64,000 bases of DNA, from assembly GCA_032622095.1 (NCBI GenBank), contig CP136062.1, positions 137,472,351 through 137,536,350 on the forward strand, given 5' to 3'. Positions within the stretch are counted from its first letter, which is position 1. The number at the start of each line of letters is the position of its first letter. Below the pieces are notes generated by a model. It worked only from the letters and a program-made list of their open reading frames with translations. It was not told where the DNA came from and did no database searches. Positions 15,366 through 61,830 of this stretch are shown here, in pieces. This DNA comes from Siphonodentalium dalli (lineage: Eukaryota; Mollusca; Scaphopoda; Gadilida; Siphonodentaliidae). The position numbers and the translations under genes were made by a program.

Positions 15366-15578
15366 CTAACCCAACAGCTTTGTTGCTCTTGAGAGATTTG
15401 AGACTATTTTCAGTCTCCTCCATGTAGATACGAAAGTCGAGTTCTGAAAAAAAAATTCTCTTTCAAGATTTTCCAGGCATTCCGATATTTGTTTATTTCT
15501 GTCAGAGACAGATGGGTTCATTTGATTGAGGTTCTTAAAATAGGATGCCCAACTGTCCAGTTCAATATTGTTTTCCAA
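15366..15578 (-). pseudogene. LINE ORF2, linker between endonuclease and RT
   Basis: A 70-codon frame continues the endonuclease polypeptide after a shift near 15,560-15,580 and is lost again at the homopolymer around 15,445-15,455. It encodes the charged linker (DSWASYFKNLNQM) that precedes RT motif 0 in this family. Confidence 0.6.
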
Positions 15579-17062: not shown

Positions 17063-17066
17063 TTAT

Positions 17067-18107: not shown

Positions 18108-18216
18108 CTTGTCTAATTTGTGTAATATGCAATTTATGTTGGTACGGTGATCCTGTTGTGTGTTTTTTTCTGTTTTTAATGATAAACACTCATTCCGAAA
18201 AAATTTCGAATGCTGC

Positions 18217-19534: not shown

Positions 19535-19563
19535 CTTAACACATATTAAAAATGATTTTTAGG

Positions 19564-19629
19564 CCAATGCATTCTCTTATATATGCGAGGCGACCTATGG
19601 TAGATTCGCATATATAAGAGAATGCATTG
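19564..19629. repeat. 69-nt palindrome family, copy H2
   Basis: Same hairpin as H1; the loop reads GCGACCTATGGTAGA and the last bases of the right arm are diverged. Confidence 0.8.
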
Positions 19630-19936
19630 AAACAGGGCATAACTGTAACCATCACAATGTGGTCAATAAACCGGTTCCAATGATATCCATATTTGTATGG
19701 TGTTATTGAGACAGACCGAAGATATTTTAGGCTGTTGAAGCTTTATTTGGACGTTTTTGGCCGTTTTGTTGGGTAAAGGGTTAAACAGCAACAGAAACAC
19801 ACAACGCACTATACGGGTTTACACTGTAATTCCCGTTCCAAGTCGGCGCCCACTTCTCATCGTGGCTAACAATCCATGGTTCAATAAAGCATGTCGGCAT
19901 GTGCTGTACACGCCGATCAGACCCCAAATGCTTTAA

Positions 19937-20993: not shown

Positions 20994-21568
20994 CAATGGT
21001 GTGGCGGCATGGGGACCCTCCCGCCAACTACGGTCAAATTTATCACCAGTTTTTAATTTTTTCATTTCATACCTGACGCAATATTGCATGTAGTTGGAAA
21101 TTTCACACCAACAACGGGTTGAAATTGTTTTGGAAGTCTGATTTTCCAACATTAATTTGTTTTAGACAAACATTGGAATGTCTTCATACTTTTAGTCAAA
21201 ATATTTGTTTGAAATTTCATATAGGTCCCTCCCTCCCCGATATCCAATCAAAATTCATGTAAAAAAAAGCATGTGAAGTACCAAGCGGGAAATTCAAAGC
21301 CGATGGGATTGTGCAAATTGAGTTATTTTATCTTGGTAGTTTGTCCTGGTTCAAGTGGGGATCAGTTGGAAATCCCACATCCACATCCTCCTACAACGGA
21401 AGTCCTCTGTAGCTACATCCCTACACACATATCCATATAATACTTCGGCGATTATGTCAACCCATCTAAAATGGAATTACGAAGTCAATTGTCGAAACAG
21501 GCGATAATATTCATGGATCATAACTCGAGTGTGAACAGTTACCCGCGTATCCCCTAGATAAACATTAT
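20994..21568. repeat. Repeat mosaic including R1 sequence
   Basis: 21,090-21,150 is a fragment of the GGAAATTTCC-type repeat (TTGGAAATTTCACACCAACA). 21,484-21,545 matches 51,268-51,305 of R1 (ATGGATCATAACTCGAGTG). Confidence 0.5.
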
Positions 21569-24500: not shown

Positions 24501-25066
24501 AAACGCTATATAACACCCGTATACATATTTATATTCCGAGCCGGACTCATCCTCGGGTACATGTTATAGTAGGTACCGAATTGACACACGTCGACTGGGG
24601 CGAGTTGGCCCTGGGCAATTAGGCCGATTCCGGCACCTTCTATAATTTACCGTATGTTTCCATGTACGCGTAGTTTACTTTAGAAAGTTCCGCAATTAAT
24701 ACCGTAAATAGAGCGACCATATTTGACAGAGAATGCCTCTGTTATTGATTATCAAGTTGCTATACATTAAAAACGACAAATTCACATGCTCGTTCAAGCG
24801 CAGTAGTCTATTTTCCCCATGTTAAAGGACATCCACAAATACTAAATAACGCTAACCTACTGCCGAATGTTTTACACGACAACTGTTAACATATTCGGGC
24901 TGAATTCATCTGACGCGGTATTATTCCTCAAAATAAACAACAAAACCATCGTTACTTGGAAATGTAGTTTGGGCTAACATTTACATAAATCCTCCACATC
25001 ATTTATTCGACACACACGTCAGATGAAAAACAGACATGAAGTAAACGGCCAAATTGGCCGAAATAA
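21569..25066. mobile_element. 3.4-kb non-coding element, copy 1
   Basis: This copy is about 95% or more identical by eye, and collinear, with 38,634-42,026. Both copies begin ACAAGAAAACTAAGATGCAT and end GGCCAAATTGGCCGAAATAA, while outside sequences differ. In the flanking R1 repeat the site is uninterrupted at 60,600-60,625, so this is an insertion. It has no TIRs, no clear target duplication and no supported ORF. It contains Helitron-like blocks (22,017-22,512), a 135-bp tandem duplication (about 24,048-24,345) and an AATAAAGTTGCATTCC tail-like segment. Compared with copy 2 it has about 100 extra bp near 22,760-22,870 and lacks about 17 bp near 23,910. Mechanism unknown. Confidence 0.7.
22017..22512. 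repeat. Helitron-like subrepeats
   Basis: After a GTCTGTCTGTTTGTCTGTTA start and GGCCGGGAAAACTGC, three units of about 125 bp repeat GGGTCAAATC...GACC / TCAATTCAAGGTCAAATC. The segment ends in a small hairpin CCCGGACGAAGTCGGG and CACCAGCTA. A similar end at 22,000-22,016 (GAAGTCGAGTACATCAGCTA A/T) resembles Helitron 3' ends (hairpin then CTRR). Autonomy and family are uncertain. Confidence 0.4.
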
Positions 25067-25605
25067 CCACCATTCAAGGTGATCACATATCACCATAGCC
25101 GTACGAGCGCCTGATCGCATATCACCATAGCCGTACGAGCTCCCAAGTATTCAGGGGGACTGAGACTTTTTGTCCGATGTTGTTTACATTATATATTATT
25201 CATAGCTGTAACACAGTTTTTATAGAATATACCTTGCATATACACAGAAATAAAACCAAATTAACCTTAAATATGTATCATTCGGCCAGAAATGTGAAAA
25301 AATACTGTAATGTGGCCATAATTTTCATGAATTAACATTCAATTTTCAGAAAATAGCCCGAATTTGACCGAAAATATATCCATTTTGAGCTTTCAAAACG
25401 TTTTGGAGCTGCAACACTCCCAGTCCCTCCCATTACATGGCCCGTGCGGCTATATGAATATCACATGCACACTAGCGAGAACATAGCAGTGCACTGTCTC
25501 CCTTGGATATATTCCTTTATTATTTTGTTCATTGGTCAAGTAAGTCATATGGGAATACCTGACATTTTCTTGCACCTACATGTGAACGTGCAATAAGTGA
25601 AGTTT
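25067..25605. repeat. R1 right-end sequence
   Basis: CAAGGTGATCACATATCACC near 25,076 and TCATTGGTCAAGTAAGTCA ... ACCTGACATTTTCTTGC ... ACATGTGAACGTGC (25,530-25,600) parallel 60,618-60,770. It includes a tandem pair of CATATCACCATAGCCGTACG (25,087-25,140). No gene. Confidence 0.55.
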
Positions 25606-29500: not shown

Positions 29501-29754
29501 CACTGGATCTGGTGCGCTCGATTTCAAGTTCAAAATATATTTCAATAACGTCAATTGTAGTTTTTCTATGTCAGGTATATAGTAACATCACTAAACGTCA
29601 CATCCATACAAGAGAATCGGCTTCACCGTTTTCAAGAAGAGATCAATTTGCAAATCAAATGGTATATCCATGTCCTTGCACTTGTAAATTAGCGAATACA
29701 TATGTGACCCGCCATATCAAATCCAGTCGGAAGTCGGGATTTTTTTTACCCTGT

Positions 29755-29823
29755 GCCAATGCATTCTCTTATATATGCGAGTCGACCATAGGTCGCCTCG
29801 CATATATAAGAGAATGCATTGGC
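29755..29823. repeat. 69-nt palindrome family, copy H3
   Basis: A 27-nt perfect stem (starting GCCAATGCATTCTCTTATAT) around a 15-nt loop that is itself GGTCG/CGACC paired. Confidence 0.9.
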
Positions 29824-30041
29824 CTAACAATTTTTTATCATTTTTTTAAAATAAATGTTTCTTACAATTTTTAGGACATAAAATAAAAAACATCCATTAC
29901 CCTGCAGGGAGCCCCACACATATATAGAAGCAAATAGAAGAGTGTCGTCTGCTCATATTTGTCTGGGGCTCTGTATGGGTGAAATTATAAAATTGTTAAA
30001 GAATACAAGAAAAAATTATTAAAATTGTAAAAAATTGTTAG

Positions 30042-30110
30042 GCCAATGCATTCTCTTATATATGCGAGGCGACCTATGGTCGACTCGCATATATAAGAGA
30101 ATGCATTGGC
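30042..30110. repeat. 69-nt palindrome family, copy H4
   Basis: Inverted relative to H3, perfect 27-nt stem, loop GCGACCTATGGTCGA. Confidence 0.9.
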
Positions 30111-30523
30111 ACAGGGTAAAAAAATCCCGACTTCCGACTGGATTTGATATGGCGGGTCACATACATATAGGGCGTCTTGTCTTTGATTTTTGTCTAGCAT
30201 TAACAAAATTTCCAGTTTCGTGAAAATAACTCCCAGGTAATCCTATACCTTTTCAATTTCTTGGGCATTTATCATTAATTTTGTACAAGGTTTTCGCCCA
30301 TTTCCAAGCATCAAAAACTTAGTGTTCTTTACATTTAGATTTAGTTTCCAAAAAGATTATGCATCAAAAGTTTTCAGTGCTAATTCCTTGTCTTTCATTG
30401 TATCAGCATAATTTGATATAACTGTTTCGTCAGCGTATATATATATTACAATTAACAATTCCATGTGTATCCCAATCTCAATGAACAGCTCGTTTTAGAC
30501 CCTGGTTTCTAAATTGTTCACGG

Positions 30524-30774
30524 TTGAGTGAGCAGACGACACTCTTCTATATGCTTCTATATATGTGTGGGGCTCCCTGCAGGGTAATGGGTGTTTTTTA
30601 TTTTATGTCCTAAAAATTGTAAGAAACATTTATTTAAAAAAAATGATAAAAAATTGTTAGGCCAATGCATTCTCTTATATATGCGAGGCGACCTATGGTC
30701 GACTCGCATATATAAGAGAATGCATTGGCACAGGGTAAAAAAATCCCGACTTACGACTGGATTTGATATGGCGG
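30524..30774. repeat. Half copy of the 29.7-kb MITE with hairpin H5
   Basis: TCTATATATGTGTGGGGCTC to GGCGGGTCACATA is an inverted copy of 29,702-29,950, including the palindrome at 30,661-30,729. The other half of the element is missing. Confidence 0.75.
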
Positions 30775-32097
30775 GTCACATATAGTTGGGATGTGGAGTA
30801 CGGCTTATCAATAAGAATGATTCCGCCGGTGTAGGAAGGTATGTCGTTGTTTTACCATCTGACATTTTCGGGGTCCCACCACCCCAAACCCGCAAACAAA
30901 ATACTTGTTTACACCCCACCGCCCCCTAATTCAACTCCCATGCAAATGACAATAGAACCAGTTTTAACAGCTATGTTTTAAAGGCACGTGCGGCCTTGAT
31001 TGTCGAAAATATTCATATTTGTTCCAAACACCGTAAACAGAAAAACATTAAAACGCATACAGTTCCGTTCATATATACAATGACCATCGCGTAAACAGCA
31101 TGTTATCATAAAGACCTACTATATTTTCCATAAGCAAGAGCCTGATTGTGTTACAGAAGATAGCACAATGCTACTGGCTAATCACACACAAATGGCATAA
31201 ACGCTCTTTATTAGTTCCATATCAGGTATTCACCAACAAAGAACGCTCTTTATGTTTACCATCATAATATAAACAAACAACAGAAAAGTTACTTTTTATG
31301 CTTTTGTTTACATAACAAGGGTCAAACATGTGGCCATAACATACTGTTTATGCGATATTTCTTATGTGTATACGGACAAAGTCTATCTACATGTTGATGT
31401 TCTTTCTGTTTGTGGCGGTTTTTGACGGGTGGAGATATTTTCACAGGATACCCACCGCCAAGGCCAACCGTGTCTTTAATGAAAAAAAGGAAAATGAAAA
31501 AAATCCATGCACACGGCTAAATTGAAATTATAACGCATCGATGTAGTGGACAAATACAGTAACCATTAAGAATTAAGCTGATAGCTACTGCACATACTAG
31601 AACTATAGTATAAGGCATAGGCATCCAATTTTACAAAAACAAATTGTACAGACCCAGTGAGATATAATTTCCCCTGCTGTTATATGAACCGAACATGTTT
31701 GGACTCAGTAACATAAATATGGTGTTTGTGCAGTTATAGTATGTTTTAAACTGTTAGATATATCAGATATAGACAGAAAAGGTCTTTAGTCAAAATTTGC
31801 ATGAGGTTGTAATCACCCACATCGACATATATACCTTCCTGCGATTTTGTTACTACCCCCCCCCCCCCGGCCGGTGGTATGTATTGTTAGCTTCACACAA
31901 CAGTGGCTTGGTAATTGTCTATGTTATTCAAATCTCGCACCAATGTGTGACCCTTGAACAAGGTTGCTCGTATTGTAACTGCTTCGCACCACTCATGTGT
32001 TAAAAGAGTAATCGGTGTGGTGTCGATGGGTATTATATTGCCAGTATGATTAATCCTGATGCGCTATTACTCGATGTACAGACCCAGTGAGATATAA
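30775..32097. other. Non-coding stretch
   Basis: No gene is supported. It holds two AACGCTCTTTAT words (31,199 and 31,242), a C-run at about 31,856 and a duplicated TGTACAGACCCAGTGAGATATAAT segment (31,646 and 32,075). Confidence 0.4.
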
Positions 32098-37936: not shown

Positions 37937-38633
37937 AATTTTCTGAAATTTCGGACTATTTCGTCTATAAAAATACGATGAGCAACTGAAAATGTTTTTC
38001 AACATTCTGGAAGGGGTATATGTCCATGGTATATATGTTTAAAATTTCACGCATAAACTATGACAGATAACAAAGTTATAATTAGTTTTATAGGCCCACC
38101 ATAAATCCCCTATAATAAACGCATGCCTCCGTAAGCACATGGCTTTGCTGTGGATACTTTCGTTCCCAGCATGCATCATTCTCGCTATCGGTAAAATGTC
38201 TATGAACAATGGCTGCATGTGCCATGCACTCTTAGCTTTGATCCGCATTTAGAAGCATTCTGGTGTGGCGAATGAGAAACCTGCAGTAATTTATAAGCCG
38301 TAGTTCATTGTAATAATTTGAAGAATTACTTGTCTTAACGGAATTCTGAGGCGGTCCATTCATGTAACCAATATATTTTATATTATGATTTATATTTATG
38401 ACTAATAATACGATCTTGGTGGCGTTACCATTTCTGACTATGGTTTTCTTGTCTCCCCTGACTAGTATGTATATCGAGCTCTCTTGGAATCAGGGAGCTA
38501 AATGTGTTCCAGAGTCGGGGAGCGAGTACACCGTGGAAAGGTGAAGGTAACTGAATAATGACCTTCACCTGATACATGGGACACGTTATTAAAGGATGAC
38601 ATCGCGTTTAGTTGATTTGTACATCATATATAA
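37937..38633. other. Non-coding stretch with an R1 fragment
   Basis: 38,385-38,452 (ACGATCTTGGTGGCGTTACC, TTTCTGACTATGGTTTTCTT) matches 11,343-11,402. No gene. Confidence 0.45.
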
Positions 38634-41600
38634 ACAAGAAAACTAAGATGCATGCATCAGGTCGGCCGTGAACTATCTACCATAGAATTGTTGTAGCTAT
38701 CGATTATACATTTTGAAACACCTGTCTGTATGTATGTATGCGTGAATGCATGTGTGTATGTGCTATAGACTCTAACACTGCTCGAATTTGGTATTTAACG
38801 TGTCAACTTGACCTCGCTCATAGGCATGTTTCTGGACCTTGACCGATCCGACTAAAAATTTGTGTGTAGGACTACTTCGATCCCGGGAGCAATATGGACG
38901 GGTCCAATTTCACGTGGGACCATGTTCTCGAACGTGCTGATATAGGCATGTTTCTGGACCAATTGAACAATAGTTTGGCCAGACGCTGTATATACTGGGT
39001 ACTGTCCAGATGGAGGCGATCACAAAAAAAATCCCTAACTAGCCCGAACGAAGTCGAGTACATCAGCTAGTTTAATATATATTTTGGACATTTGTCTGTC
39101 TGTTTGTCTGTTAGCTATGGCCGGGAAAACTGCCCGACAGATTTGACGAAATTTGATACCTAGGGGAAATTATTTCCAGGGAGTATTTTGGACGGGTCAA
39201 ATCTTGATCCCGACCTGACTTTGACATTCAAAAAGATCAATTCAAGGTCAAATCTGGTAAAACGGAAGTATTTCAACGAAGTTTGATACCTACTGTTACT
39301 TTTGTCCCAGGAGTGTTTCGGGTGGGTCAAATCATGACCCTGACCTGATCTTGACATTCAAAATTGTCAATTCAAGGTCAAATCGGGTATAAAGCCGGGC
39401 GGATTTCGACGGGTACTTTTGTCGTGAATTTTGTCCGGGGAGTGTTTTGGACGGGTCAAATCGTGACCCCGACATGACCTTCACCTTTAAAATAGTCAAT
39501 TCAAGGTTAAATCGCGCATTTCTCCGAAAATCAGAGGGGAACATCCCGGACGAAGTGGGGTCCACGAGCTACTATTATATATTTCTAGATTTAGTTACAA
39601 ACTAAATACCTGTATATTGTACAAAGAAATGTTTGACAAATATATCTGTATCAATATTACCATACGGGTCATTAAAATAGATACGACGAAACAAATTTTG
39701 AAGGGTGCATGTATCAGGTAAATTTTTATATTTCAAATGATGACAGGAATGCAGAAAGTTGAAGTACCTACGTAATACTGGCTATCCGCATGAAGAGATA
39801 TACATGTATATAAAAACCAGATGAGGGATATGTCTGTACAGTTGCTAAACAATTCAATCATGCAAAAGAGGATCAAAGAGTAAGATACCAAATTGCTGCC
39901 TGTGGTAATGTTTTTTAACGAAATTCGGGAAAATTAGATTACTCTCACCCTGGTTATCCAGAAGATAATTGTGGAATCTGATGACGATCGGACAAGGGTG
40001 TCGTCTGTAGGATCAACCAAATTATTTAGCCATAAAAATAGTAAAATTGAAGATCACCGCTGGCAGTGATGTCTTCACAAGGACAGTTTGAGAACAAAAT
40101 ATGGCTCACATCTAGCGGTGACCCAAAATATCCACATAAGAAAAAGTTCTCCAATAAAAGCTGGCTGCAGGGTGCGCCAATTGATTCAAATTCGAAATTT
40201 AGCAGGGTGTACTGCTTGTGGCCATGTTTTCCCCGCAAATTTGATAGACTGATGGACAAAACCACTGAATCCGTTGAATCAATATACATGTATACATGGA
40301 TTAATTTATATGCATTGTTATACACAGTACTGGTATATAAAGGTACTGAAAATAACTATATTACTAGTATACACAAAATAAACCATATATCATGGCTATG
40401 GGTTCTAATATCCGAACATGACAGCTGAGAACTTGGTGTGAATTAAAGAGTGGTGGTTTCTCAAGCATATCTAACCCTCCACGTTAGTAACATGCCATCA
40501 AATGTCATAAGTATAATCTAGCTTGAGGACAGAAGTGATCCATAAAACCCCCCTTAATTCAACCAGGTCCTCGCGCGATGTATGATCGATCACATGATGA
40601 TCTAGGGGGATTAGAATTGATGTATAAAAACAGCACTGCGTGTAAATATAAAATAAAATAGTGCTACATCTTATTACAGATTATTGCCATATATAATCAG
40701 TGATTATACAGACAGTCTGACAAAATAAAGTTTCAGTGACACTCTATCCGAAGAGGGGAATAATTTCATCTGTTACAGTCAATGGAGCAATTATGAATCT
40801 GGAAAGGTGAAATTTCTAAGTAATACTAGATATCGACATGACGCGATAAAATATAACGTAAATGCAATATGGCCGCTGGCGACCATTTTTTCCTATGAAA
40901 TTAAAAAAATATTTGATAGCTCTCATCTGATAGATCAATATCAAGATAAATATGAAGTTTGGTGATGATCGGATGAGTGAAGTGGACTGTGGTCTGTGCT
41001 AAACGGTTTAGTAATGCTTAAAAAGATTCTTACCTTAATATTTTTATGTTCACTTTATAAACTTCACTGAGTCATCTTTGTCATGTATTGAGTTTGATAT
41101 CTTTTGTTAACAGTTTATAAATCATGTATGTCTCATGTTTGTTATTTTAATTTATGTGTTTATTATCATTAAATAAAGTTGCATTCCTTAAAAAGATTCT
41201 TACCGCATTGTTTTTATGTTCACTTTATAAACTCCACTGAGTCATCTTTGTCATGTATTGAATTTGATATCTTTTGTTAACAGTTTATAAATTATGTATG
41301 TCTCGTGTTCGTTATTATATTATATACACTTTATAGTGTGTTTTCAGAACGAAAAAAAATTGAATAAAATCAACAAATTTGTAAATTTAAAAACAATTCA
41401 AACGTTGTTGTATTCCATGTCCCAGCCCGGACAAATTTCAATAATATTCATTGAGAAACAACGGACCAAACGCTATATAACACCCGTATACATCTTTTAT
41501 TCCGAATCGGACTCGGGTACATGTTATAGTAGGTACCGAATTGACACACGTCGACTGGGCGAGTTGGCCATGGGGCGATTAGGCCGATTCCGGCAGATTC

Positions 41601-42026
41601 TATAATTTACCGTATGTATCCGTTTACGCGTAGTTTACTTTAGAAAGTTCCGCAATTAATACCGTAAATAGAGCGACCTTATTTGACAGAGAATGCCTCT
41701 GTTATTGATTATCAAGTTGCTGTACATTAAAAACGACAAATTCACATGCTCGTTCAAGCGCAGTAGGCTATTTTCCCCATGTTAAAGGACATCCACAAAT
41801 ACTAAATAACGCTAACCTACTGCCGAATGTTTGACACGACAACTGTTAACATATTTGGGCTGAATTCATCTGACGCGGTATTATTCCTCAAAATAAACAA
41901 CAAAACCATCGTTACTTGGAAATGTAGTTTGGGCTAACATTTACATAAATCCTCCAGATCAATTATCCGACACACACGTCAGATGAAAAAGTCACATGAA
42001 GTAACCGGCCAAATTGGCCGAAATAA
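38634..42026. mobile_element. 3.4-kb non-coding element, copy 2
   Basis: Collinear, nearly identical copy of 21,569-25,066 with the same first and last 20 bases but different flanks. An internal deletion of about 100 bp at 39,820 joins TATATAAAAACC to AGATGAGGGA. It keeps GGCCGCTGGCGACC near 40,871, which copy 1 lacks. Helitron-like subrepeats lie at 39,070-39,572; CATCAGCTAG|T near 39,061-39,071 fits a Helitron CTRR end. No supported ORF. Confidence 0.7.
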
Positions 42027-47099: not shown

Positions 47100-48742
47100 T
47101 GATAATATTAAAACAATTTTTGACACAAACTGCGATCCAATAAAACTAGGCGATAGTTCTATAAATCACATGTTATTCGCTGATGACCTAGTTTTAATGT
47201 CCGAGAGTCAATCAGGACTTCAAAGATGCCTCGAGGCTCGAACGGCGTGAAGATTTTACACGGGCAAATGAACTAACAATTAATGAAGAAAAAACTAAAT
47301 GCATGATTTTTCGATCTCGAGCTTCAAAACACTTAACAACATTTTCGATAGCAGAAAATAACCTCGAAACGGTTAAGCAATACACATACCTTGGAGTAAA
47401 GTTTACATACACTGGGAAATTCACAGACGCGGTATCGGACCTAACTTCCAAAGGTCGCAAAGCTATGTATGCTCTCAGAAATGCATCCGACAGCACAGCA
47501 CCCCTACCAGTGAGTACATCTATGAAATTATATGAGAAGTTAATCAAGCCAATTGTCTTATACGGAAGTGAAATATGGGGAGTGGAAGCAACGTCTAAGA
47601 ACTACGATAGGCTAGAATGCGAAAAGTTACACATAAAATTCTGCAAAATAGTATTAGGAGTAGGCAAATATGCATCTAACACTGCAGTTAGGACGGAATT
47701 GGGTAGCTATCCACTTTACATCGACGCTATTTGTAGAATGGCCGCATATGCTATTAAAATTTCTAATAATGTTGACAGTAACTTGATCAGAAATGCCGTG
47801 ATTGAACAACGTTCACCCGGCGTTCAGAAATCAATATTCAAAACGACGGCAGCATTTGGGTTAAATATCACCGACGGCACACAAGTTGTCAAGAATCTTA
47901 CTAACTTGAGACAGCAGTTACAATCCAACTATCATAACGACTTTATTTTTAATATGAGCGATGAAGCATCTAAAACAGGGAGTAACAAATTACGGATGTA
48001 TCGCATTTTCAAAACTACTTTTCAAATGGAACCATACTTGCTCAATACCCAATACAATGAAGACAAAATAGCATTCACGAGATTAAGAATAAGTAATCAC
48101 GCCCTAGCGATAGAGCGTGATAGACATTACCAACCCCCGATACCCTTACCAGATAGAGTATGTACCTTTTGTTTCAATACAAAAAAGCAAATAGAGGACG
48201 AAGTTCACTTCATTATGGATTGTCCTCTTTACGCGGCACTGAGATCGGAATTATTTTCCATAATGGGAAATAATTACAAAAATTTCCAACTATTAGACCA
48301 AGAGTATCAATTCATAACTATTCTAGAAAACAGATGTCCTCGCATATGTGCGAAAATCTGCAACATGGTTAAACAATTCTTCCAACTCAGAACAGAACAG
48401 TGTTAAATTATTTCAGATTAATGAGCATAATAGATCTGAGAAACAAACCTTATTGAGATATACATTAATTATGGAATTACATGACATGTATTGTGAAATA
48501 TTATAGGACAGTATGCTTGTACCCACATTGATACACCATTATAGGTAGTACGTGGTAGTACCGTATATATATATTTTTTTCTTTTTCTTATTATGATTGT
48601 ATGTTTAAATGTTATAAGATATAGCATGCTTAATTTCACATGTATGGTTATAATAGTGTTATAACCAGTATAATGTATTACACTGTATAGGGCAACCTAC
48701 CCATGTGGGTGTTATTGCTATTACACATTATTATTATTATTA
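47100..48742 (+). mobile_element. 5'-truncated CR1/L2-type LINE
   Basis: Starts within the RT domain (FADD box at about 47,172-47,183), continues through the C-terminal domain, then a 3' UTR ending in (ATT)n at 48,725-48,742. Opposite strand and different subfamily from the 12.9-kb LINE. Confidence 0.75.
47303..48406 (+). pseudogene. LINE ORF2, RT thumb and C-terminal domain
   Basis: A 367-codon frame beginning inside the RT palm/thumb: YTYLGVKFTYTGKF (about residues 28-41), VLYGSEIWGVE (about 86-96), then the LRISNHALAIERDRH motif and a complete CCHC knuckle CTFCFNTKKQIEDEVHF...C (about 280-300). Upstream, the LFADDLVLMSESQSGLQRCL box (47,166-47,225) is separated by one frameshift at 47,240-47,250, after which a TGA closes the first frame. 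This is a 5'-truncated dead copy although its 3' half is clean. It resembles the 13.4-kb domain but retains the His ligand. Confidence 0.8.
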
Positions 48743-50419: not shown

Positions 50420-51358
50420 AGTTATAAAGTGTTATGGAAAATTTAAAATGCCACCTATTTTAACGAGAAGGGAACGCGCCCTCGTCGTTGGAGTAGGGAT
50501 GTGTGTTCAGGGACGCGATGAACTCTGATGTATGTTCTCATTACTTGATATTCCAACCAGTGTAACTAGTTGCACATCTTCCTACTTTTGGTCAAAATGT
50601 TAGTTTGGTTCACCTATGCATACCCTCTATGCATACAGCCCAAATTAAAGTAAAACAACTAAATCAAGGCATGCATGTGAGGTACCAAATTATAAAGCAT
50701 TCCCATATACGCAGAGCTAGGCTTTCCGTTCGGGGGTGTCCACCTTGGGAAATTCTGACTGCACCCTCCCCCTTGAATCAGAATCAGACCAAACACAAGT
50801 TTTCCATAATTCCATTTGCACCCCCTTGCACCTCAGTGCTCTTAGGCCTAATATTAGACCACGGGGGAGGGACCAGGACACAAGCTTTCAAAGTGTTGGA
50901 AATTTCCAACCTGTCACCCCCCTGAGTTTGGTTGGAAAGTTTCCAACTGATGACCATTTCAGACCAAAAAATTTACCAAAAATAGGAAAATATGCAAATA
51001 TTGGTCCAAAAACAATTAATTCCCCCAAGAAATGTTTTGAAAATCAAACTACAAGAACATTTTCAACCTATTGTTGGTGTGAAATTTCCAACTAATGTTG
51101 GCAGGTATGAAATGTCCAACTGTTGAAAATATTGACCAAAGTTGGGGACACACCCAAGCCCCCCCCCCCCTGTCGCCACGTCTCTGTACACACGTATATA
51201 CATGTATATATAATACATCAGCGGTTCTGACAACCAATATAAAAGGAAATACGTAGTATGTTGAAACAGACGATACTATTGATGGATCATAACTCGAGTG
51301 CTTGAATTGTTATGATCATATCCCTGCGAGATTAGTTAACGGATACCGATGGCCCAGA
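50420..51358. repeat. R1 interior and GGAAATTTCC-type repeat
   Basis: 50,865-51,190 is the inverted copy of 32,100-32,420 (CAGTTGGAAACTTTCC-type words, GTGGCGACAGGGGGGG end). The remainder is R1 sequence shared with 21.5 kb. CCCAGA at 51,353-51,358 is the left target duplication of the following palindrome. Confidence 0.6.
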
Positions 51359-51448
51359 AGTAGTACGTGAGGCTCGTTAGACCCACATCTAAAAATAGAT
51401 TTTTTGGGGTTAAAATTGTTTGTACTAAAATATTCCCACAAAAAAAAA

Positions 51449-51563
51449 CTTCCAAAACTTCAAAAATTTCAAAAATTTCAAAAATTTCAAAAACTTCAAA
51501 AATTTCAAAAATTTCAAAAACTTCAAAAGCTTCAAAAATTTCAAAAAACTTCAAAAATTTCAA
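51449..51563. repeat. (TTTCAAAAA)n minisatellite, left arm
   Basis: About a dozen 9-bp units of TTCAAAAAT/TTCAAAAAC, some 90 bp inside the left terminus. Phe/Glu/Ile-rich frames across it are repeat artefacts. Confidence 0.85.
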
Positions 51564-52289
51564 TATAATGAAGATGACGAGCAACCAATTTTCGACTGGC
51601 CTGAGGCATTACGTTATGAAATGAATAACGACAGCGGATCAGAATGTGATCATACACGCAATAATAGAAGTTACTTTGATGTTGTTGTTATGAATAGAAT
51701 TTTATCAACCTTACGTATTAACAGTTTATTGAGTTATGCATACATATAGTACGTCACTTGGACATTTTATCAGTTTATCACGTGATCACTAAATGTGCCA
51801 ATCGGGTATCCACCGATGCCTGCAATGTATTATTTATAATAATTGGACTCATTGATCTCACGTAAATAATACTCTTAGTTGTTCCAATAAAATAGTTATC
51901 AAATTCGATCACCAATAGATTTGACTGTGGAATATAATGACCTTTAACTTATTTATCGATCTAAAGGGACACTCATTATGAATGAATGTTAACAATACAA
52001 GCGCACGAATGAAGAGCGTTGAACATATACGAAATTACTACACGAATGAATTGAACCTTGAAATTTATATTTCACATCTTACCAACAACAGCTACAGACA
52101 TAGTCATAGTGTTATACTGTCTTGCATGTACACACGCTATGACATCATTAAAGGCGGACAATCCACTCACGGTGTGACAACAGATACAGACATAGGCATA
52201 GTGTTATACAGTCTTCTATGTACCCACATTAAATGTGACACCATTAAAGTACATTGGATGTTAGGTCTATGACTCTTGAGTATGCACCA

Positions 52290-52745
52290 ATCAATGAGCA
52301 AATGAGCAAACAAAAATGAGCAAATGAGCAAAAAAATTAGCAAATGAGCAAGAAAATGAGCAAATGAGCAAGAAAATGAGCAATAAAAATGAGCAAATGA
52401 GCAAGAAAATGAGCAAATGAGCAAGAAAATGAGCAAATGAGCAATAAAAATGAGCAAATGAGCAAAAATATGAGCAAATGAGCCAAAAAATGAGCAAATG
52501 AGCAATAAAATGAGCAAAATGAGCAAGAAAATGAGCAAGAAAATGAGCAAATGAGCAAGAAAATGAGCAAATGAGCAAGAAAATTAGCAAATAAGCAATA
52601 AAAATGAGCAAATGAGCAAATAAATGAGCAAATGAGCAAAAAAATGAGCAAATGAGCAAAAAAAATGAGCAAATGAGCAAGAAAATGAGCAAGAAAATGA
52701 GCAATATAAATGAGCAAATGAGCAAGAGGTGAGCAAGTGAGCAAG
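52290..52745. repeat. (GAGCAAAT)n minisatellite, left arm
   Basis: About 455 bp of ATGAGCAA / AAATGAGCAAGA units. Long open frames on the minus strand (repeating Leu-Ile-Cys-Ser-Phe) are produced by the repeat. Confidence 0.9.
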
Positions 52746-53099
52746 TGATCATGTCGATAATAAAAAGCAGCATTTTATAGATCGAAAAGAAATTTTGTCA
52801 GAATATTGTCATCAACTCAATCAAGATCTCAACGAAACGCATTATTGACATCGATAACTATCATGGTGCATTGGCATTCATGGCCAGACAAATACAATAC
52901 AACCTACCTATCCAAATGTCAATGCAATTATGAGTGATTTCAATATGAGCACTCTATTATATAGATATGTGTAACCTGGTGACATGATGAAATCGATTGT
53001 GATACAAAGCTAAAGTACCGCCCCATAGGGCAGATACATAGCTAAAGTACCGCTCATAGAGCAGAAGCTAAAATACCGCTCTAACGTTGTCTGAATCTA

Positions 53100-53230
53100 C
53101 AGCCCCTTCATTATTATATCCGTGTTTGGTCAGTTTGACCATTTTCTTCATGATCATGGTATGTATGGGTGATGTTTTCATTCGATGCTGGTATTCTATT
53201 AATCGTTCGTAACTTTTGAGAAAGAGGAAC
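53100..53230 (-). pseudogene. Partial second zinc-finger gene copy, left arm
   Basis: Encodes only the C-terminal helical part of the 211-aa protein found at 55,150-55,785 (LKSYERLIEYQHRMKT...MKKMVKLTKHGYNNE), preceded by a (CAA/GTT)n microsatellite (53,227-53,262) instead of the finger and acidic region. No start or finger remains. Confidence 0.7.
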
Positions 53231-53439
53231 AACAACAATAACAACAACAACAACAACAACAACCGCCGCCGTAGCGTGACGAGCAAAATGTGATGTTTAC
53301 ACACTTAAGCTCTGGATAAACAATACATATCGCATCTGCAGCAGTCTACTTCATTGTGAATTAAGTCACTCTGGGTTAGTTGACTACATGCATGCACACA
53401 CAACACAGCCGAGGGTTATTGTAATTTAATAAAAATGTC

Positions 53440-54060
53440 ACACCGAGGTACGCCATCTTGATTGCTTTCAAAAATAGTGCAACTTACCTGTTGGTAATTA
53501 CTCATACGAATGAAGAGCGTTTAACTGATACGAAATTACTACACGAATGAACTGAATCTTGACATTTATATTTCACATCTTTCTTAAATGTTCCAACACA
53601 TACAGACATAGACATAGTGTTATACAGTCTTATATGTACACACGCTACGACACCATTAAAGGTGGACAATACACTCACGATGTGACAACATATACAGACA
53701 TAGGCATAGTGTTATACAGTATTCTATGTACCAACGCTATGACATAATTAAAGGGGGGTAATGCACGCACGGTGTGGAATGTTAAAGTGACACGAGGTAA
53801 GGGACGTAATGTAATATTGGTGTGTGAATATTAAAGGAGCACAATGCGCTCTAAAGGGACACACGGCACTCATTATGAATGAATGTTAAAGAAACACAAT
53901 ACACACGCAGTGGGTTAAAGTTAAAAAGACACAGAACAATATTTAAACTTAAAATTTTAGGGCTCTTAATGTACCATTTATGTATCGTTTCTCGCTCTAC
54001 AATCTCCCATCCCCACTTATAGATATATAACGAAGACGAGAATAACATGTTGATGTTTTC
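53440..54060. repeat. Arm subrepeat X2, left arm
   Basis: Direct repeat of 54,480-55,135. Both contain ACGCCATCTTGATTGCTTTC, AATGAAGAGCGTTTAACTGA, two copies of a 100-bp unit (ACAGACATAGACATAGTGTT) and TATAACGAAGACGAGAATAA. Confidence 0.8.
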
Positions 54061-54479
54061 ATGTTTAAGCTCAGGTATGACTCAAATTGTATCAATGGTA
54101 CATATATGTGCATCTTATCACGTGGCGATCAAAATGTGATGTTTACACACTTAAGCTCTGAATAAACTATACATATCGCATCTGAATGAATTTCTGGAAT
54201 GTAGGTTAGCCATGCGTTCACAGACACTGGAATACAATAGTCACTGTCTATAGAGAAGTATGACCTTGTACGTAAATAATAAAGCGCGTTATCGAGTCTA
54301 TTCATTCTCAATAATAGATGGTCATTTAGTCAAAACAGTATGGTGTCATTTATCCCCCACATATTGGAGCCACACATTACTTGATGTTCACTTATACAGT
54401 TGTATGTCAATTATCAGTGGAGTGTCAGTGTACTTCATTGTGAATTAAATCACTCTGGGTTATTTGACTATAAACTATA
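54061..54479. other. Inter-repeat spacer of the left arm
   Basis: Partly homologous to 53,270-53,430 (ATGTGATGTTTACACACTTA). No gene. Mirrored at 57,540-57,945. Confidence 0.5.
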
Positions 54480-55135
54480 AACCTGTTACACCACAGCCGA
54501 GGGTTATTGTAATTTAATGAAAATGTCACACCGATGTACGCCATCTTGATTGCTTTCAAAAATAGTGCAACTTACCTGTTGGTAATTACTCATACGAATG
54601 AAGAGCGTTTAACTGATACGAAATTACTACACGAATAAACTGAGTCTTGACATTTATATTTCACATCTTTCTTAAATGTTCCAACACATACAGACATAGA
54701 CATAGTGTTATACAGTCTTATATGTACACACGCTACGACACCATTAAAGGTGGGCGTTACACTCACGATGTGACAACATATACAGACATAGGCATAGTGT
54801 TATACAGTCTTCTATGTACCAACGCTATGACATAATTAAAGGGGGATAATGCACGCACGGTTTGGAATGTTAAAGTGACACGAGGTGAGGGACGTTATGT
54901 AATATTGGTGTGTGAATATTAAAGGAGCACAATGCGCTCTAAAGGGACACAAGACACTCATTATGAATGAATGTTAACAATACACACGCAGTGGGTGAAA
55001 GTTAAAAAGACACAGAACAATATTTAAACTTCAAATTTTAGGGCTCTTAATGTACCATTTATGTATCGGTTCTCGCTCTACAATCCCCCTCCCCACTTAT
55101 AGATATATAACGAAGACGAGAATAACATGTTGATG
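54480..55135. repeat. Arm subrepeat X1, left arm
   Basis: See X2. It lies directly downstream of the zinc-finger gene. Similar 100-bp units recur a third time near the minisatellite (52,080-52,250). Confidence 0.8.
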
Positions 55136-55149
55136 AAGTTTATTGAAAT

Positions 55150-55785
55150 TTAATCATTGTCAGAAGCTTCGACCGTTAGATTTATTTCTAGGAGTTTCTT
55201 GAATTTTCTCATCGCTTCATCCGCAGCCCATTCATTATTATATCCGTGTTTGGTCAGTTTGACCATTTTCTTCATGATAGCGTTATGTATGCGGGATGTT
55301 TTCAATCGATGCTGGTATTCTATCAATCGTCTGTAACTTTTGAGAAAGAGAGAAAACTCTGTGTCGACGCGTTCTAGCTGAGCTTTTCCCTCAGCCTCTT
55401 CTCCCGACACGCCCTCTTCTTCCATCAGTTGATCAAACTTATCAGACAATGCTTTCACATCATCGATGACGCGTTTCATCATACTTTTGAATGTGTCCAT
55501 CTCATTGACGCATCGCGCAGCTTTCTTACGGCCGAATACCGATCTACTACCGGCGACAGTATCATCCTCTGAATCTGAAGAGGACGAAGCGGTTCTAGAT
55601 TCTGATGAAGGTGAACGGGGAATGATATCAGATTCGGACGAATCTAGAACCGTTTCTCGGTCATCTGTATCTTTCCCGAAAAAATCTCCATTCGTTCCTG
55701 ACATAATTCCGTGTTTAATCTGTTTATGTCTTTGTAGATTGTAGTTCGTCGATAAAATATTTCCGCATAAATGGCACCCAGGCAT
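55150..55785 (-). CDS. Small C2H2 zinc-finger protein, intact copy (left arm)
   Basis: A 211-aa single-exon frame. Residues 4-25 form one C2H2 finger (C4, C7, H20, H25; CHLCGNILSTNYNLQRHKQI). About 40-85 is Ser/Asp/Glu-rich (SSESDIIPRSPSSES, DSEDD). 85-92 is basic (GRKKAAR). 95-211 is mostly charged helix (MDTFKSMMKRVIDDVKALSD; LKSYRRLIEYQHRLKTS), possibly a coiled coil for dimerisation. A single finger with an acidic tract suggests a DNA- or RNA-binding regulator or accessory protein; no specific function can be assigned. An AATAAA signal (55,139-55,144) lies just after the stop. The gene points away from the palindrome centre and faces its mirror copy across a 436-bp intergenic region. It is the only reading frame in the element that looks protein-like. 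Confidence 0.7.
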   Translation of the reverse strand: MPGCHLCGNILSTNYNLQRHKQIKHGIMSGTNGDFFGKDTDDRETVLDSSESDIIPRSPSSESRTASSSSDSEDDTVAGSRSVFGRKKAARCVNEMDTFKSMMKRVIDDVKALSDKFDQLMEEEGVSGEEAEGKAQLERVDTEFSLFLKSYRRLIEYQHRLKTSRIHNAIMKKMVKLTKHGYNNEWAADEAMRKFKKLLEINLTVEASDND

Positions 55786-56221
55786 TATCGCGAATTATTG
55801 GAATAACGATCACTCTTATATTAACGAAAAGATCGAAAAAGTTCTGTTAAAAAAAAATGGCGCGCGCGGCCCCTTCCCCTTTTTTGGTTCGGATTTTTTT
55901 TGTATGGGGGATCGTACGTATCAAAAGGAAAAGTGCATTCGAGGAGAGGAGAAAAGAGTAAATGAGCAAGAAAAAAGAGCAAATGATCAAGTGGGGGAGT
56001 GGGACAAAGAGCAAATGAGCAACTGAGCACAGGAGCAAGAGTGGAGAACACCAAAACGACCTTAACGTCATCGTTAGCATGTATGAATATAATGTTATCA
56101 AGCGTACATTTTTTTCCAAAAAAGGGGAAGGGGCCGCGCGCGCGCGCCATTTTTTTTTAACAGAACTTTTTCGATCTTTTCGTTAATATAAGAGTGATCG
56201 TTATTCCAATAATTCGCGATA
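55786..56221. promoter_or_regulatory. Palindrome centre, putative bidirectional promoter
   Basis: 436 bp separate the two divergent start codons. The outer parts (55,786-55,887 and 56,113-56,221) are mirror images and include a GGCCCCTTCCCC/GGGGAAGGGGCC block and CGCGCG. The central 225 bp is single-copy and contains scattered GAGCAAA/GAGCAACTGAGCA words. Promoter function is inferred from the gene layout; no TATA element is asserted. Confidence 0.5.
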
Positions 56222-56846
56222 ATGCCTGGGTGCCATTTATGCGGAAATATTTTATCGACGAACTACAATCTACAAAGACATAAACAGATTAAACACGGAA
56301 TTATGTCAGGAACGAATGGAGATTTTTTCGGGAAAGATACAGATGACCGAGAAACGGTTCTAGATTCGTCCGAATCTGATATCATTCCCCGTTCACCTTC
56401 ATCAGAATCTAGAACCACTTCGTCCTCTTCAGATTCAGAGGATGATACTGTCGCCGGTAGTAGATCGGTATTCGGCCGTAAGAAAGCTGCGCGATGCGTC
56501 AATGAGATGGACACATTCAAAAGTATGACGAAACGCGTCATCGATGATGTGAAAGCATTGTCTGATAAGTTTGATCAACTGATGGAAGAAGAGGGCGTGT
56601 CGGGAGAAGAGGCTGAGGGAAAAGCTCAGCTAGAACGCGTCGACACAGAGTTTTCTCTCTTTCTCAAAAGTTACAGACGATTGATAGAATACCAGCATCG
56701 ATTGAAAACATCCCGCATACATAACGCTATCATGAAGAAAATGGTCAAACTGACCAAACACGGATATGGGCTGCGGATGAAGCGATGAGAAAATTCAAGA
56801 AACTCCTAGAAATAAATCTAACGGTCGAAGCTTCTGACAATGATTA
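56222..56846 (+). pseudogene. C2H2 zinc-finger protein, frameshifted copy (right arm)
   Basis: Mirror copy of 55,150-55,785. The finger (C4, C7, H20, H25), acidic tract and helix are preserved, with two substitutions seen (Ala to Thr near residue 66, Met to Thr near 102). A 10-bp deletion (AATAATGAAT) at 56,767 shifts the frame: the product would stop at codon 188 (56,788) with a five-residue altered tail, losing about 25 residues. The original frame resumes beyond and ends at 56,846. AATAAA at 56,853-56,858. The truncated protein might still be made. Confidence 0.7.
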
Positions 56847-56869
56847 AATTTCAATAAACTTCATCAACA

Positions 56870-57530
56870 TGTTATTCTCGTCTTCGTTATATATCTATAA
56901 GTGGGGAGGGGGATTGTAGAGCGAGAAACGATACATAAATGGTACATTAAGAGCCCTAAAATTTGAAGTTTAAATATTGTTCTGTGTCTTTTTAACTTTC
57001 ACACACTGCGTGTGTATTGTTAACATTCATTCATAATGAGTGTCTTGTGTCCCTTTAGAGCGCATTGTGCTCCTTTAATATTCACACACCAATATTACAT
57101 TACGTCCCTTACCTCGTGTCACTTTAACATTCCAAACCGTGCGTGCATTATCCCCCTTTAATTATGTCATAGCGTTGGTACATAGAAGACTGTATAACAC
57201 TATGCCTATGTCTGTATATGTTGTCACATCGTGAGTGTAACGCCCACCTTTAATGGTGTCGTAGCGTGTGTACATATAAGACTGTATAACACTATGTCTA
57301 TGTCTGTATGTGTTGGAACATTTAAGAAAGATGTGAAATATAAATGTCAAGACTCAGTTTATTCGTGTAGTAATTTCGTATCAGTTAAACGCTCTTCATT
57401 CGTATGAGTAATTACCAACAGGTAAGTTGCACTATTTTTGAAAGCAATCAAGATGGCGTACCTCGGTGTGACATTTTCATTAAATTACAATAACCCTCGG
57501 CTGTGGTGTAACAGGTTTATAGTTTATAGT
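56870..57530. repeat. Arm subrepeat X1, right arm
   Basis: Inverted copy of 54,480-55,135. Confidence 0.8.
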
Positions 57531-57949
57531 CAAATAACCCAGAGTGATTTAATTCACAATGAAGTACACTGACACTCCACTGATAATTGACATACAACTG
57601 TATAAGTGAACATCAAGTAATGTGTGGCTCCAATATGTGGGGGATAAATGACACCATACTGTTTTGACTAAATGACCATCTATTATTGAGAATGAATAGA
57701 CTCGATAACGCGCTTTATTATTTACGTACAAGGTCATACTTCTCTATAGACAGTGACTATTGTATTCCAGTGTCTGTGAACGCATGGCTAACCTACATTC
57801 CAGAAATTCATTCAGATGCGATATGTATAGTTTATTCAGAGCTTAAGTGTGTAAACATCACATTTTGATCGCCACGTGATAAGATGCACATATATGTACC
57901 ATTGATACAATTTGAGTCATACCTGAGCTTAAACATGAAAACATCAACA

Positions 57950-58590
57950 TGTTATTCTCGTCTTCGTTATATATCTATAAGTGGGGATGGGAGATTGTAG
58001 AGCGAGAAACGATACATAAATGGTACATTAAGAGCCCTAAAATTTGAAGTTTAAATATTGTTCTGTGTCTTTTTAACTTTCACCCACTGCGTGTGTATTG
58101 TGTTTCTTTAACATTCATTCATAATGAGTGCCGTGTGTCCCTTTAGAGCGCATTGTGCTCCTTTAATATTCACACACCAATATTACATAACGTCCCTTAC
58201 CTCGTGTCACTTTAACATTCCACACCGTGCGTGCATTACCCCCCTTTAATTATGTCATAGCGTTGGTACATAGAATACTGTATAACACTATGCCTATGTC
58301 TGTATATGTTGTCACATCGTGAGTGTATTGTCCACCTTTAATGGTGTCGTAGCGTGTGTACATATAAGACTGTATAACACTATGTCTATGTCTGTATGTC
58401 TTGGAACATTTAAGAAAGATGTGAAATATAAATGTCAAGACTCAGTTCATTCGTGTAGTAATTTCGTATCAGTTAAACGCTCTTCATTCGTAGGAGTAAT
58501 TACCAACAGGTAAGTTGCACTATTTTTTGAAAGCAATCAAGATGGCGTACCTCGTTGTGACATTTTCATTAAATTACAATAACCCTCGGC
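57950..58590. repeat. Arm subrepeat X2, right arm
   Basis: Inverted copy of 53,440-54,060. Confidence 0.8.
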
Positions 58591-58768
58591 TGTGTTGTGT
58601 GTGCATGCATGTAGTCAACTAACCCAGAGTGACTTAATTCACTATGAAGTAGACTGCTGCAGATGCGATATGTATTGTTTATCCAGAGCTTAAGTGTGTA
58701 AACATCACATTTTGCTCGTCACGCTACGGCGGCGGTTGTTGTTGTTGTTGTTGTTGTTATTGTTGTTG

Positions 58769-58897
58769 TTCCTCTTTCTCAAAAGTTACGAACGATTAAT
58801 AGAATACCAGCATCGAATGAAAACATCACCCATACATAACATGATCATGAAGAAAATGGTCAAACTGACCAAACACGGATATAATAATGAAGGGGCT
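58769..58897 (+). pseudogene. Partial second zinc-finger gene copy, right arm
   Basis: Mirror of 53,100-53,230, preceded by (GTT)n at 58,735-58,771. Same C-terminal helix fragment; one residue differs (His-Asn-Met against His-Thr-Met). Confidence 0.7.
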
Positions 58898-59264
58898 GTA
58901 GATTCAGACAACGTTAGAGCGGTATTTTAGCTTCTGCTCTATGAGCGGTACTTTAGCTATGTATCTGCCCTATGGGGCGGTACTTTAGCTTTGTATCACA
59001 ATCGATTTCATCATGTCACCAGGTTACACATATCTATATAATAGAGTGCTCATATTGAAATCACTCATAATTGCATTGACATTTGGATAGGTAGGTTGTA
59101 TTGTAGACACACGAATTAAATTTGTCTGGCCATGAATGCCAATGCACCATGATAGTTATCGATGTCAATAATGCGTTTCGTTGAGATCTTGATTGAGTTG
59201 ATGACAATATTCTGACAAAATTTCTTTTCGATCTATAAAATGCTGCTTTTTATTATCGACATGA

Positions 59265-59622
59265 TCACTTGCTCACTTGCTCACCTCTTGCTCATTTGCT
59301 CATTTGTATTGCTCATTTTCTTGCTCATTTTGCTCATTTTCTTGCTCATTTGCTCATTTTCTTGCTCATTTTCTTGCTCATTTGCTCATTTTTTTGCTCA
59401 TTTGCTCATTTTTTTGCTCATTTGCTCATTTTTATTGCTCATTTGCTCATTTTCTTGCTCATTTGCTCATTTTCTTGCTCATTTGCTCATTTTCTTGCTC
59501 ATTTGCTCATTTTTATTGCTCATTTGCTCATTTTCTTGCTCATTTGCTCATTTTCTTGCTCATTTGCTCATTTGCTAATTTTTTTGCTCATTTGCTCATT
59601 TTTTTTGCTCATTTGCTCATTG
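59265..59622. repeat. (GAGCAAAT)n minisatellite, right arm
   Basis: Mirror array, about 100 bp shorter than the left one (about 360 against 455 bp). Confidence 0.9.
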
Positions 59623-60337
59623 ATTGGTGCATACTCAAGAGTCATAGACCTAACATCCAATGTACTTTAATGGTGTCATAGCGTGGGTACATAGAAGACT
59701 GTATAACACTATGCCTATGTCTGTATCTGTTGTCACACCGTGAGTGGATTGTCCGCCTTTAATGATGTCATAGCGTGTGTACATGCAAGACAGTATAACA
59801 CTATGATTATGTCTGTAGCTGTTGTTGGTAAGATGTGAAATATAAATTTCAAGGTTCAATTCATTCGTGTAGTAATATATGTTCAACGCTCTTCATTCGT
59901 GCGCTTGTATTGTTAACATTCATTCATAATGAGTGTCCCTTTAGATCGATAAATAAGTTAAAGGTCATTATATTCCACAGTCAAATCTATTGGTGATCGA
60001 ATTTGATAACTATTTTATTGGAACAACTAAGAGTATTATTTACGTGAGATCAATGAGTCCAATTATTATAAATAATACATTGCATGCATCGGTGGATACC
60101 CGATTGGCACATTTAGTGATCACGTGATAAACTGATAAAATGTCCAAGTGACGTACTATATGTATGCATAACTCAATAAACTGTTAATACGTAAGGTTGA
60201 TAAAATTCTATTCATAACAACAACATCAAAGTAACTTCTATTATTGCGTGTATGATCACATTCTGATCCGCTGTCGTTATTCATTCCATAACGTAATGCC
60301 TCAGGCCAGTCGAAAATTGGTTGCTCGTCATCTTCAT

Positions 60338-60506
60338 TATATTGAAATTTTTGAAGTTTTTGGAAATTTTGGAAATTTTGAAAGTTTTTGAAATTTTAAA
60401 AGTTTTTGAAATTTGTGAAATATTTGAAATTTGTGAAATTTTTGAAATTTTTGAAGTTTTTGAAATTTTTGAAGTTTTTGAAATTTTTGAAGTTTTGGAA
60501 GTTTTT
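60338..60506. repeat. (TTTTTGAAA)n minisatellite, right arm
   Basis: Mirror of 51,449-51,563 but about 50 bp longer and with GAAATTTGTGAAAT variants. Confidence 0.85.
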
Positions 60507-60774
60507 TTTTTGGGAATATTTTAGTACAAACAATTTTAACCCCAAAAAATCTATTTTTAGATGTGGGTCTAACGAGCCTCACGTACTACTCCCAGATGGA
60601 GGCAATAAAGAAATATACACCTATCAAGGTGAACACATATCACCAATTGGCGATAAAATATCAGCGCGCTGCCTTCGTCGGATATTTTCCGGTATTATTT
60701 TTTTCATTGGACAAGTAAGTCACATGGGGCATACCTGATATTTTCTTGCTGGCCATGTGTACGCGCCCAAACTG

Positions 60775-61830
60775 TTATATTGCATGGGGATTTGAGGATG
60801 GTATAAGAAATTTTAGCTTGTTATTTAACATCGTTTAGTGAACTTTTTCATTTATATATAAGATATAAATAGCATGTTATATTTTAAATGAATTTGGATT
60901 GTAATTATTAACCAATTCACACGTTACTCCTTCGTGCTGTTTGTACATATTGACGTTTAGTGAACTTCAGTCTCGGTCTCTAAACTTTTTTTTCATTTCT
61001 TTGTATGCGGAATATATCTGAGCTAGGAATAGAGATTTTATTAACAAAAGTTCCAACACTAACCCTTCACATTGGTTGTTTAACATACAATGGCCTTATT
61101 CTAAACATCGGTGTATGTCTGTGTACGCAACATATATCAGAATGTTATATGAATTGAACAATGTTAAGAGATTCACCCTCATGTTACATGTTTTAATTGA
61201 TCCTCATGGGGTGGGCATATTTTAATTATTCCTCATTGGACCATATTTTAATTGATCCATCATGGGACTACGACTATGGTGTATATTGGCAAGTATATCG
61301 GGCCCTGTCGTAGGAGGTGATGAATAAATGTGATTAAAGCGTACTTGGTAATTGCATACTTGGGTGGACTAAATGTGATCAGAAACTTACTCGGTATTTG
61401 CGGACTTGAACCATGTAACTAAGATCGACAATTTTGGCCGCATTATTATCCTGCATGCAATTTCATGCACTTTTCAGACCTCTATTTCTATAGAAATTAG
61501 AATAGGTATTCGCGTACTCGGATGGACTAAGTGTGGTTAGAAACGTACTCGGTATTTGCGTACTTGAACCATGTAACGAAGATCGAGAGCTTTTTGGCCT
61601 GATTATTATTCTGCATGCTATTTCAAGCACTATTCCTCTATTTCAATAGAAATTAGAACAAATAAAAAAGTAATGATATATGCTTCGATTTAACAATTTA
61701 AATGTCGTAGAAGAGAACCGAGAACCCAACAGTTTAGTGTATTTGCCGCGAGCTGGCAGCGCGTCGACACAATGGCGTTTCAATCATCAAGGCGTTCGTC
61801 ACTTCTTTGGGAATGAACGATGCAAACAGT
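60775..61830. repeat. Block A, second copy, right part (contains LINE empty site)
   Basis: 60,775-61,138 matches 19,415-18,999 inverted, and 61,133-61,830 matches 12,867-11,690 inverted. The two pieces are contiguous here (CATATATCAGAATGTTATAT), whereas in the first copy the 6.1-kb LINE separates them. About four minisatellite units remain at 61,150-61,270. Confidence 0.75.

Follow-up and report, generated by a model that had tools for sequence, protein, structure and literature searches.

A palindromic 9.2-kb element with Polinton-type ends in the genome of the scaphopod Siphonodentalium dalli

Protein-primed replicons such as adenovirus and linear plasmids yield symmetrical snap-back defective genomes, which carry two copies of one end around a small central loop and have lost the interior of the parental molecule. 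An element with this same arrangement of doubled end, missing interior and small centre occupies positions 51359-60590 of a 64,000-nucleotide stretch of DNA from the scaphopod mollusc Siphonodentalium dalli (assembly GCA_032622095.1, contig CP136062.1, positions 137,472,351 to 137,536,350 of the forward strand), hereafter called the window. Whereas snap-back genomes are free replicating molecules, this element is chromosomal and is bordered by a target site duplication (TSD). We propose that it is a non-autonomous derivative of a Polinton/Maverick transposon in which one end was copied by a snap-back event, and that the product was integrated by enzymes supplied in trans. We give this proposal about an even chance of being correct.

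From the genes and ends of Polintons it is expected that they replicate as linear DNA by protein priming, and the end repeats of Mavericks are expected to serve the jumping-back step of such replication (PMC8097293). In the same account, vertebrate Mavericks were screened by two end motifs known from earlier reports, (AG)3//(CT)3 or (AGT)2//(ACT)2, with a perfect 6-bp TSD, and another end, of AC type, is given for one fish. The intact vertebrate elements described there span 12.7-24.6 kb and carry terminal inverted repeats (TIRs) of 46-1,447 bp and eight conserved genes (seven in one frog). The S. dalli element shares the (AGT)2//(ACT)2 ends, the perfect 6-bp TSD and the possession of TIRs, but it differs in its total length of 9,232 bp, in its arms of 4,529 and 4,475 bp, and in having no core gene among the 12 open reading frames (ORFs) scanned. 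Because core genes were not found, and because both size and TIR length fall outside the range described for intact vertebrate elements, the locus is best filed as a non-autonomous element with Polinton-type ends and not as a Polinton.

Self-BLAST searches for inverted and direct matches, for which the searched DNA was the 64-kb window, and alignment of the two arms delimit a near-perfect mirror image with the following parts.

51353..51358, no strand: left TSD, CCCAGA (self-comparison, printed sequence)
51359..55887, plus strand: left arm, 4,529 bp, beginning AGTAGTACGTGAGG (self-BLAST, arm alignments)
55888..56115, no strand: central non-palindromic spacer, 228 bp (self-BLAST, printed sequence)
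56116..60590, minus strand: right arm, 4,475 bp, mirror of the left arm, ending ACTACT (self-BLAST, arm alignments)
60591..60596, no strand: right TSD, CCCAGA (self-comparison, printed sequence)

Three inverted matches cover the arms, namely 51359-51563/60590-60388 (94.6% identity), 51444-52639/60461-59269 (94.5%) and 52408-55887/59621-56116 (97.4%). The last mirrored bases toward the centre are 55887 and 56116, which leaves the 228-bp spacer unpaired between them. At its outer boundaries the element opens with AGTAGT and closes with ACTACT, and the outermost left bases, AGTAGTACGTGAGG, are answered at the right end by their exact reverse complement. The 18-bp end AGTAGTACGTGAGGCTCG has two matches in the window with up to three mismatches, and these are the two ends of the element (0.01 matches expected by chance). 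Both copies of the CCCAGA duplication are exact, and identity between the flanks ends after these 6 bp. The sequence-only reading of this DNA had placed a palindrome of about 9.2 kb, with mirrored arms of about 4.5 kb, AGT...ACT ends and an exact 6-bp CCCAGA duplication, at the same coordinates; self-BLAST and the arm alignments bear out this description, and the ends are of the Polinton type as given for vertebrate Mavericks (PMC8097293). The G+C content of the element is 36.3%, versus 37.2% for the remainder of the window. With the low-complexity filter on, BLAST gave no match between the element and the rest of the window at E <= 0.01; with the filter off, one 28-base match of 89% identity (7525-7552) appeared.

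The arms are themselves repetitive, and each contains a 9-bp array, a GAGCAAAT-type array and a duplication of about 0.7 kb, the four copies of which are labelled L1, L2, R1 and R2.

51444..51563, no strand: subterminal 9-bp tandem array (AAAAATTTC), mirrored at 60342-60506 (repeat analysis)
52293..52744, no strand: GAGCAAAT-type tandem array of 452 bp; its mirror at 59268-59621 spans 354 bp (repeat analysis)
53342..54055, plus strand: outer copy L1 of the direct duplication, with mirror R1 at 57942-58656 (self-BLAST, four-copy alignment)
54426..55135, plus strand: inner copy L2 of the direct duplication, with mirror R2 at 56862-57571 (self-BLAST, four-copy alignment)

This duplication reveals the order of events. 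When the four copies are aligned and 13 gapped columns are excluded, 36 variable columns remain. In 23 of these, L1 and R1 agree with each other and differ from L2 and R2; none separates the left arm from the right, one is crossed, and 12 are changes in a single copy. The 0.7-kb segment was thus duplicated inside an arm first, and the mirror image was formed later.

Outside four repeat stretches, the arms differ at 28 of 3,782 aligned sites (12 transitions and 16 transversions) and by six indels. Six of these mismatches adjoin a misaligned GC-repeat indel at the centre, and without them 22 substitutions remain in 3,781 left-arm positions (0.58%). Much of the difference between the arms is located in the tandem arrays. 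The 22 substitutions are evenly spaced (longest gap 584 positions, p=0.50; dispersion 0.89, p=0.46), as would be expected if a whole arm had been copied at one time, which argues for such an event to the limited extent that 22 events permit.

An assembly or library artefact, in which a fold-back read or a haplotype misjoin doubled one arm, is a very improbable source of this structure. Palindromic fold-back reads are a known artefact of long-read sequencing and can tangle assemblies (PMC12870357). However, the mirror symmetry ends exactly at transposon-like termini with a TSD, beyond which the flanks differ. Arms that are identical save for errors, or mirrored flanks, are what one would expect from a fold-back read or an inverted misjoin, whereas these arms differ by the 22 substitutions outside the arrays and also in the lengths of their arrays. 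The divergence of the arms and the greater age of the internal duplication therefore favour one recent copying event over an assembly fold-back.

Pieces of both flanks also recur together at another place in the window, with their order preserved and no palindrome, which again speaks against an artefact. The left-flank piece 51187-51312 matches 21414-21541 (77% identity), and the right-flank pieces 60610-60645 and 60650-60749 match 25060-25095 (86%) and 25475-25573 (82%), respectively. Between the recurring left and right pieces lies a different repeat of 3.5 kb (21566-25066), and the two right pieces, adjacent beside the palindrome, are about 380 bp apart at the recurrence. Elsewhere along the flanks, the sequence matches different dispersed repeats. 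The recurring pieces support the view that the two flanks belong together, and they do not form a clean empty site. The possibility that two separate insertions came to lie tail to tail was considered and rejected, as further events would be required to leave only one pair of matching TSDs and a short spacer common to both insertions.

The mirror symmetry starts at the exact terminal base on either side and continues inward to a short spacer; this is the geometry of fold-back copying, and it supports a snap-back origin. The parental Polinton would have carried AGTAGT ends, and about 4.7 kb next to one of them would have held the arrays, an accessory ORF directed toward that end and the 0.7-kb segment, by then already duplicated. 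During protein-primed, strand-displacement copying, the displaced or nascent strand may have turned back at a point about 4.5 kb from the end and been copied on itself, such that the 228-bp spacer would be the former loop and the remaining genome would have been lost. The two resulting copies of one end could then have been used by the terminal protein and PolB, together with the integrase, of an intact relative. The product would have been inserted with an ordinary 6-bp duplication of CCCAGA, as the ends and the TSD indicate. The arms now differ by about 0.6%, and their arrays are of unequal length. In addition, the spacer contains diverged GAGCAAAT-type repeats (55950-56041) on the same strand as the left-arm array at 52293-52744, a hint that spacer and left arm may have been neighbours in the parent. 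Snap-back copying of a linear, protein-primed genome, followed by integration with an integrase provided in trans, is the simplest account of the doubled end, the exact outer boundary, the short spacer and the even divergence of the arms, and we hold it to be the likeliest origin. The ends, the TSD, the symmetry and the sequence of events can be read from the DNA itself; the parent, the copying step and the enzymes acting in trans are inferred.

The main rival explanation is expansion of the TIRs, whereby the core of an ordinary Polinton was lost after integration and one end was copied further and further over the other, by recombination or gene conversion, until the two TIRs nearly met, with no free palindrome at any stage. 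The TSD is equally compatible with a palindrome formed before or after integration and thus cannot separate these two histories. Precedents for expansion exist, since internal sequence has been recruited into the TIRs of Galileo, whose copies with the longest TIRs are non-autonomous, and the same paper mentions secondhand that inverted-repeat expansion was reported for Polintons (PMC3573991). Long TIRs were likewise permitted in a survey of polinton-like viruses, where the filter allowed up to 8 kb, a figure that is a filter limit only (PMC12220804). However, expansion would require core loss as well as conversion across more than 4 kb, and the substitutions are spread evenly, with no patchwork, although this last comparison has little power. 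We consider expansion rather unlikely.

The element could instead be a fold-back type transposon from another superfamily capable of 6-bp TSDs, with long and internally repetitive TIRs like those of Foldback and Galileo. Long TIRs, internal tandem repeats and the lack of a transposase give the element the look of this group (PMC3573991), and some other groups have variable TSDs that include 6 bp, such as IS256/MuDR with 4-10 bp (PMC10045372). Galileo, however, belongs to the P superfamily and is described with 7-bp bounding sequences and TIRs of up to about 1.26 kb (PMC3573991). Here the TSD measures 6 bp, and no transposase domain, of the P type or any other, was found in the 12 scanned ORFs. 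IS3EU (TA..TA) and GingerRoot (TA..TA, occasionally TG..CA) have 6-bp TSDs in common with the element (PMC10045372), but their termini differ from its AG..CT. The combination of (AGT)2//(ACT)2 ends with a 6-bp TSD fits the Mavericks, as they are described in PMC8097293. In this comparison of ends and TSDs, which was confined to Mavericks, IS3EU, GingerRoot and Galileo, a fold-back transposon of another superfamily emerges as a decidedly unlikely identity.

Short matches to the ends in other genomes were taken as chance. A 14-bp end sequence matched 58 viral contigs. With low-complexity filtering, none of the 58 loci matches the element at E <= 1; without it, one (L012) gave two matches of 32-33 bases. 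The 18-bp end matched two genome contigs, from Curtobacterium and from a metagenome-assembled genome (MAG) of Acidobacteria, where the likeness ends beyond these 18 bases.

Each arm carries one outward-facing ORF that begins about 100 bp outside the spacer, and a fragment of this ORF recurs further out.

55150..55785, minus strand: ORF of 211 amino acids, outward-facing, with a weakly C2H2-like N-terminus (ORF listing, Pfam)
56222..56788, plus strand: mirror copy of this ORF, 188 amino acids, outward-facing, frameshifted near its end (ORF listing, arm alignment)
53100..53233, minus strand: incomplete second copy of the arm ORF's 3' portion, matching it at 116/127 bases in the left arm, with a mirror in the right arm (self-BLAST)

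The 211-amino-acid frame is the longest within the element. Its N-terminus shows a pattern like that of a C2H2 finger, with scores (15.8 and 16.1 bits) below the Pfam cut-off of 25.2. A structure model built from the two arm copies reached a mean pLDDT (predicted local distance difference test) of 45.4, too poor for a fold search, and beyond the N-terminus it predicts helices with low confidence. The two copies differ by two substitutions, each of which alters the protein sequence, and the right copy is thrown out of frame by an indel close to its 3' end; on these grounds, evidence for selection acting on the ORF after the mirror image arose was considered and rejected.

Domains of PolB, integrase, ATPase, protease and capsid proteins were not found in the 12 ORFs scanned with Pfam, which were drawn from 34 of at least 60 amino acids at 50500-61500. 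The scan gave sub-threshold matches only (zinc fingers, NAM-associated and SH3_19). The remaining ORFs are mostly mirror copies, translations of tandem arrays or frames outside the element, and decayed fragments between stops lay outside the scan. Searches for relatives of the arm ORF gave 192 candidates in a protein database (none at E <= 0.001), no pattern match in viral contigs, 23 pattern-matching stretches in prokaryote genome contigs (none confirmed), and nothing in phage records or PHROGs.

These results alter the account that the sequence-only reading had given of a head-to-head duplication of one end, without core genes and with the whole interior gone. The absence of core-gene domains holds for the 12 ORFs scanned, whereas the claim of a vanished interior overlooked the ORF of 211 or 188 amino acids in each arm. 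The mirror image does look like the product of a single event, given the four-copy test and the even substitutions; a Polinton end would be its proposed source, and an integrase may have acted in trans on a molecule that was already palindromic.

Several points weigh against a snap-back Polinton derivative. No parent Polinton and no second palindromic copy were seen in the 64-kb window. The 4.5-kb arms exceed the TIRs of intact vertebrate Mavericks, 46-1,447 bp, a range that is not a strict definition (PMC8097293). The ORF has no demonstrated link to Polintons, and no relative of it was found; the collections are mostly viral and prokaryotic, but the protein database includes some animal proteins, so that this silence counts a little. 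Evenness measured on 22 substitutions has low power, and repeated whole-arm conversion would look alike. Finally, the recurring flank pieces are short and 77-86% identical, and the insertion point lies within an alignment gap.

A palindrome bounded exactly by Polinton-type ends, and resident in a chromosome with a normal TSD, is the expected residue of snap-back replication. The element could thereby offer a trace, open to testing, of Polintons in their free, replicating state. Should there be a parent, together with additional copies that share this centre, the element would represent a snap-back defective Polinton that became fixed in a chromosome. Such elements would escape surveys that take core genes as their starting point, and they might also be lost to filters on the insert size between TIRs, for which one survey kept 6-80 kb (PMC12220804). 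A palindromic Polinton was not described in the literature searched, as judged by titles and abstract openings, and this statement extends no further than that literature. It is conceivable, though we think it unlikely, that there is a family of chromosomal snap-back Polintons: palindromic elements, like defective interfering genomes, that are replicated and integrated by the enzymes of an intact Polinton as helper, carry two divergent copies of an accessory gene, and compete with the helper.

Other mobile elements reside in the same window. The repeat of about 3.5 kb that lies between the recurring flank pieces is present in two copies (21566-25066 and 38631-42026), pieces of which are 95.8% and 97.3% identical. 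It contains an internal 130-bp direct repeat and has a short hairpin at its right end (CGGCCAAATTGGCCG), and we take it to resemble a non-autonomous Helitron/Helentron-type element. A retrotransposon of the long interspersed nuclear element (LINE) type, with several ORFs, occupies 13407-18248 on the minus strand. Its reverse transcriptase (13900-15312) has 803 relatives at E <= 0.001. Among the best 120 of these 803, the named ones include Saccoglossus kowalevskii and Mytilus trossulus, and there are also MAG proteins labelled Thiodiazotropha, a symbiont of Lucinoma, and Omnitrophica. Taken by themselves, these relatives would suggest an animal host, perhaps a marine invertebrate such as a bivalve. 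An ORF at 47198-48406 on the plus strand appears LINE-like by eye. Lastly, a 1.1-kb element at 29700-30783, which by eye resembles a miniature inverted-repeat transposable element, has 256-bp inverted ends (98% identical) and a further internal copy (30021-30163); a related piece lies at 19547-19637.

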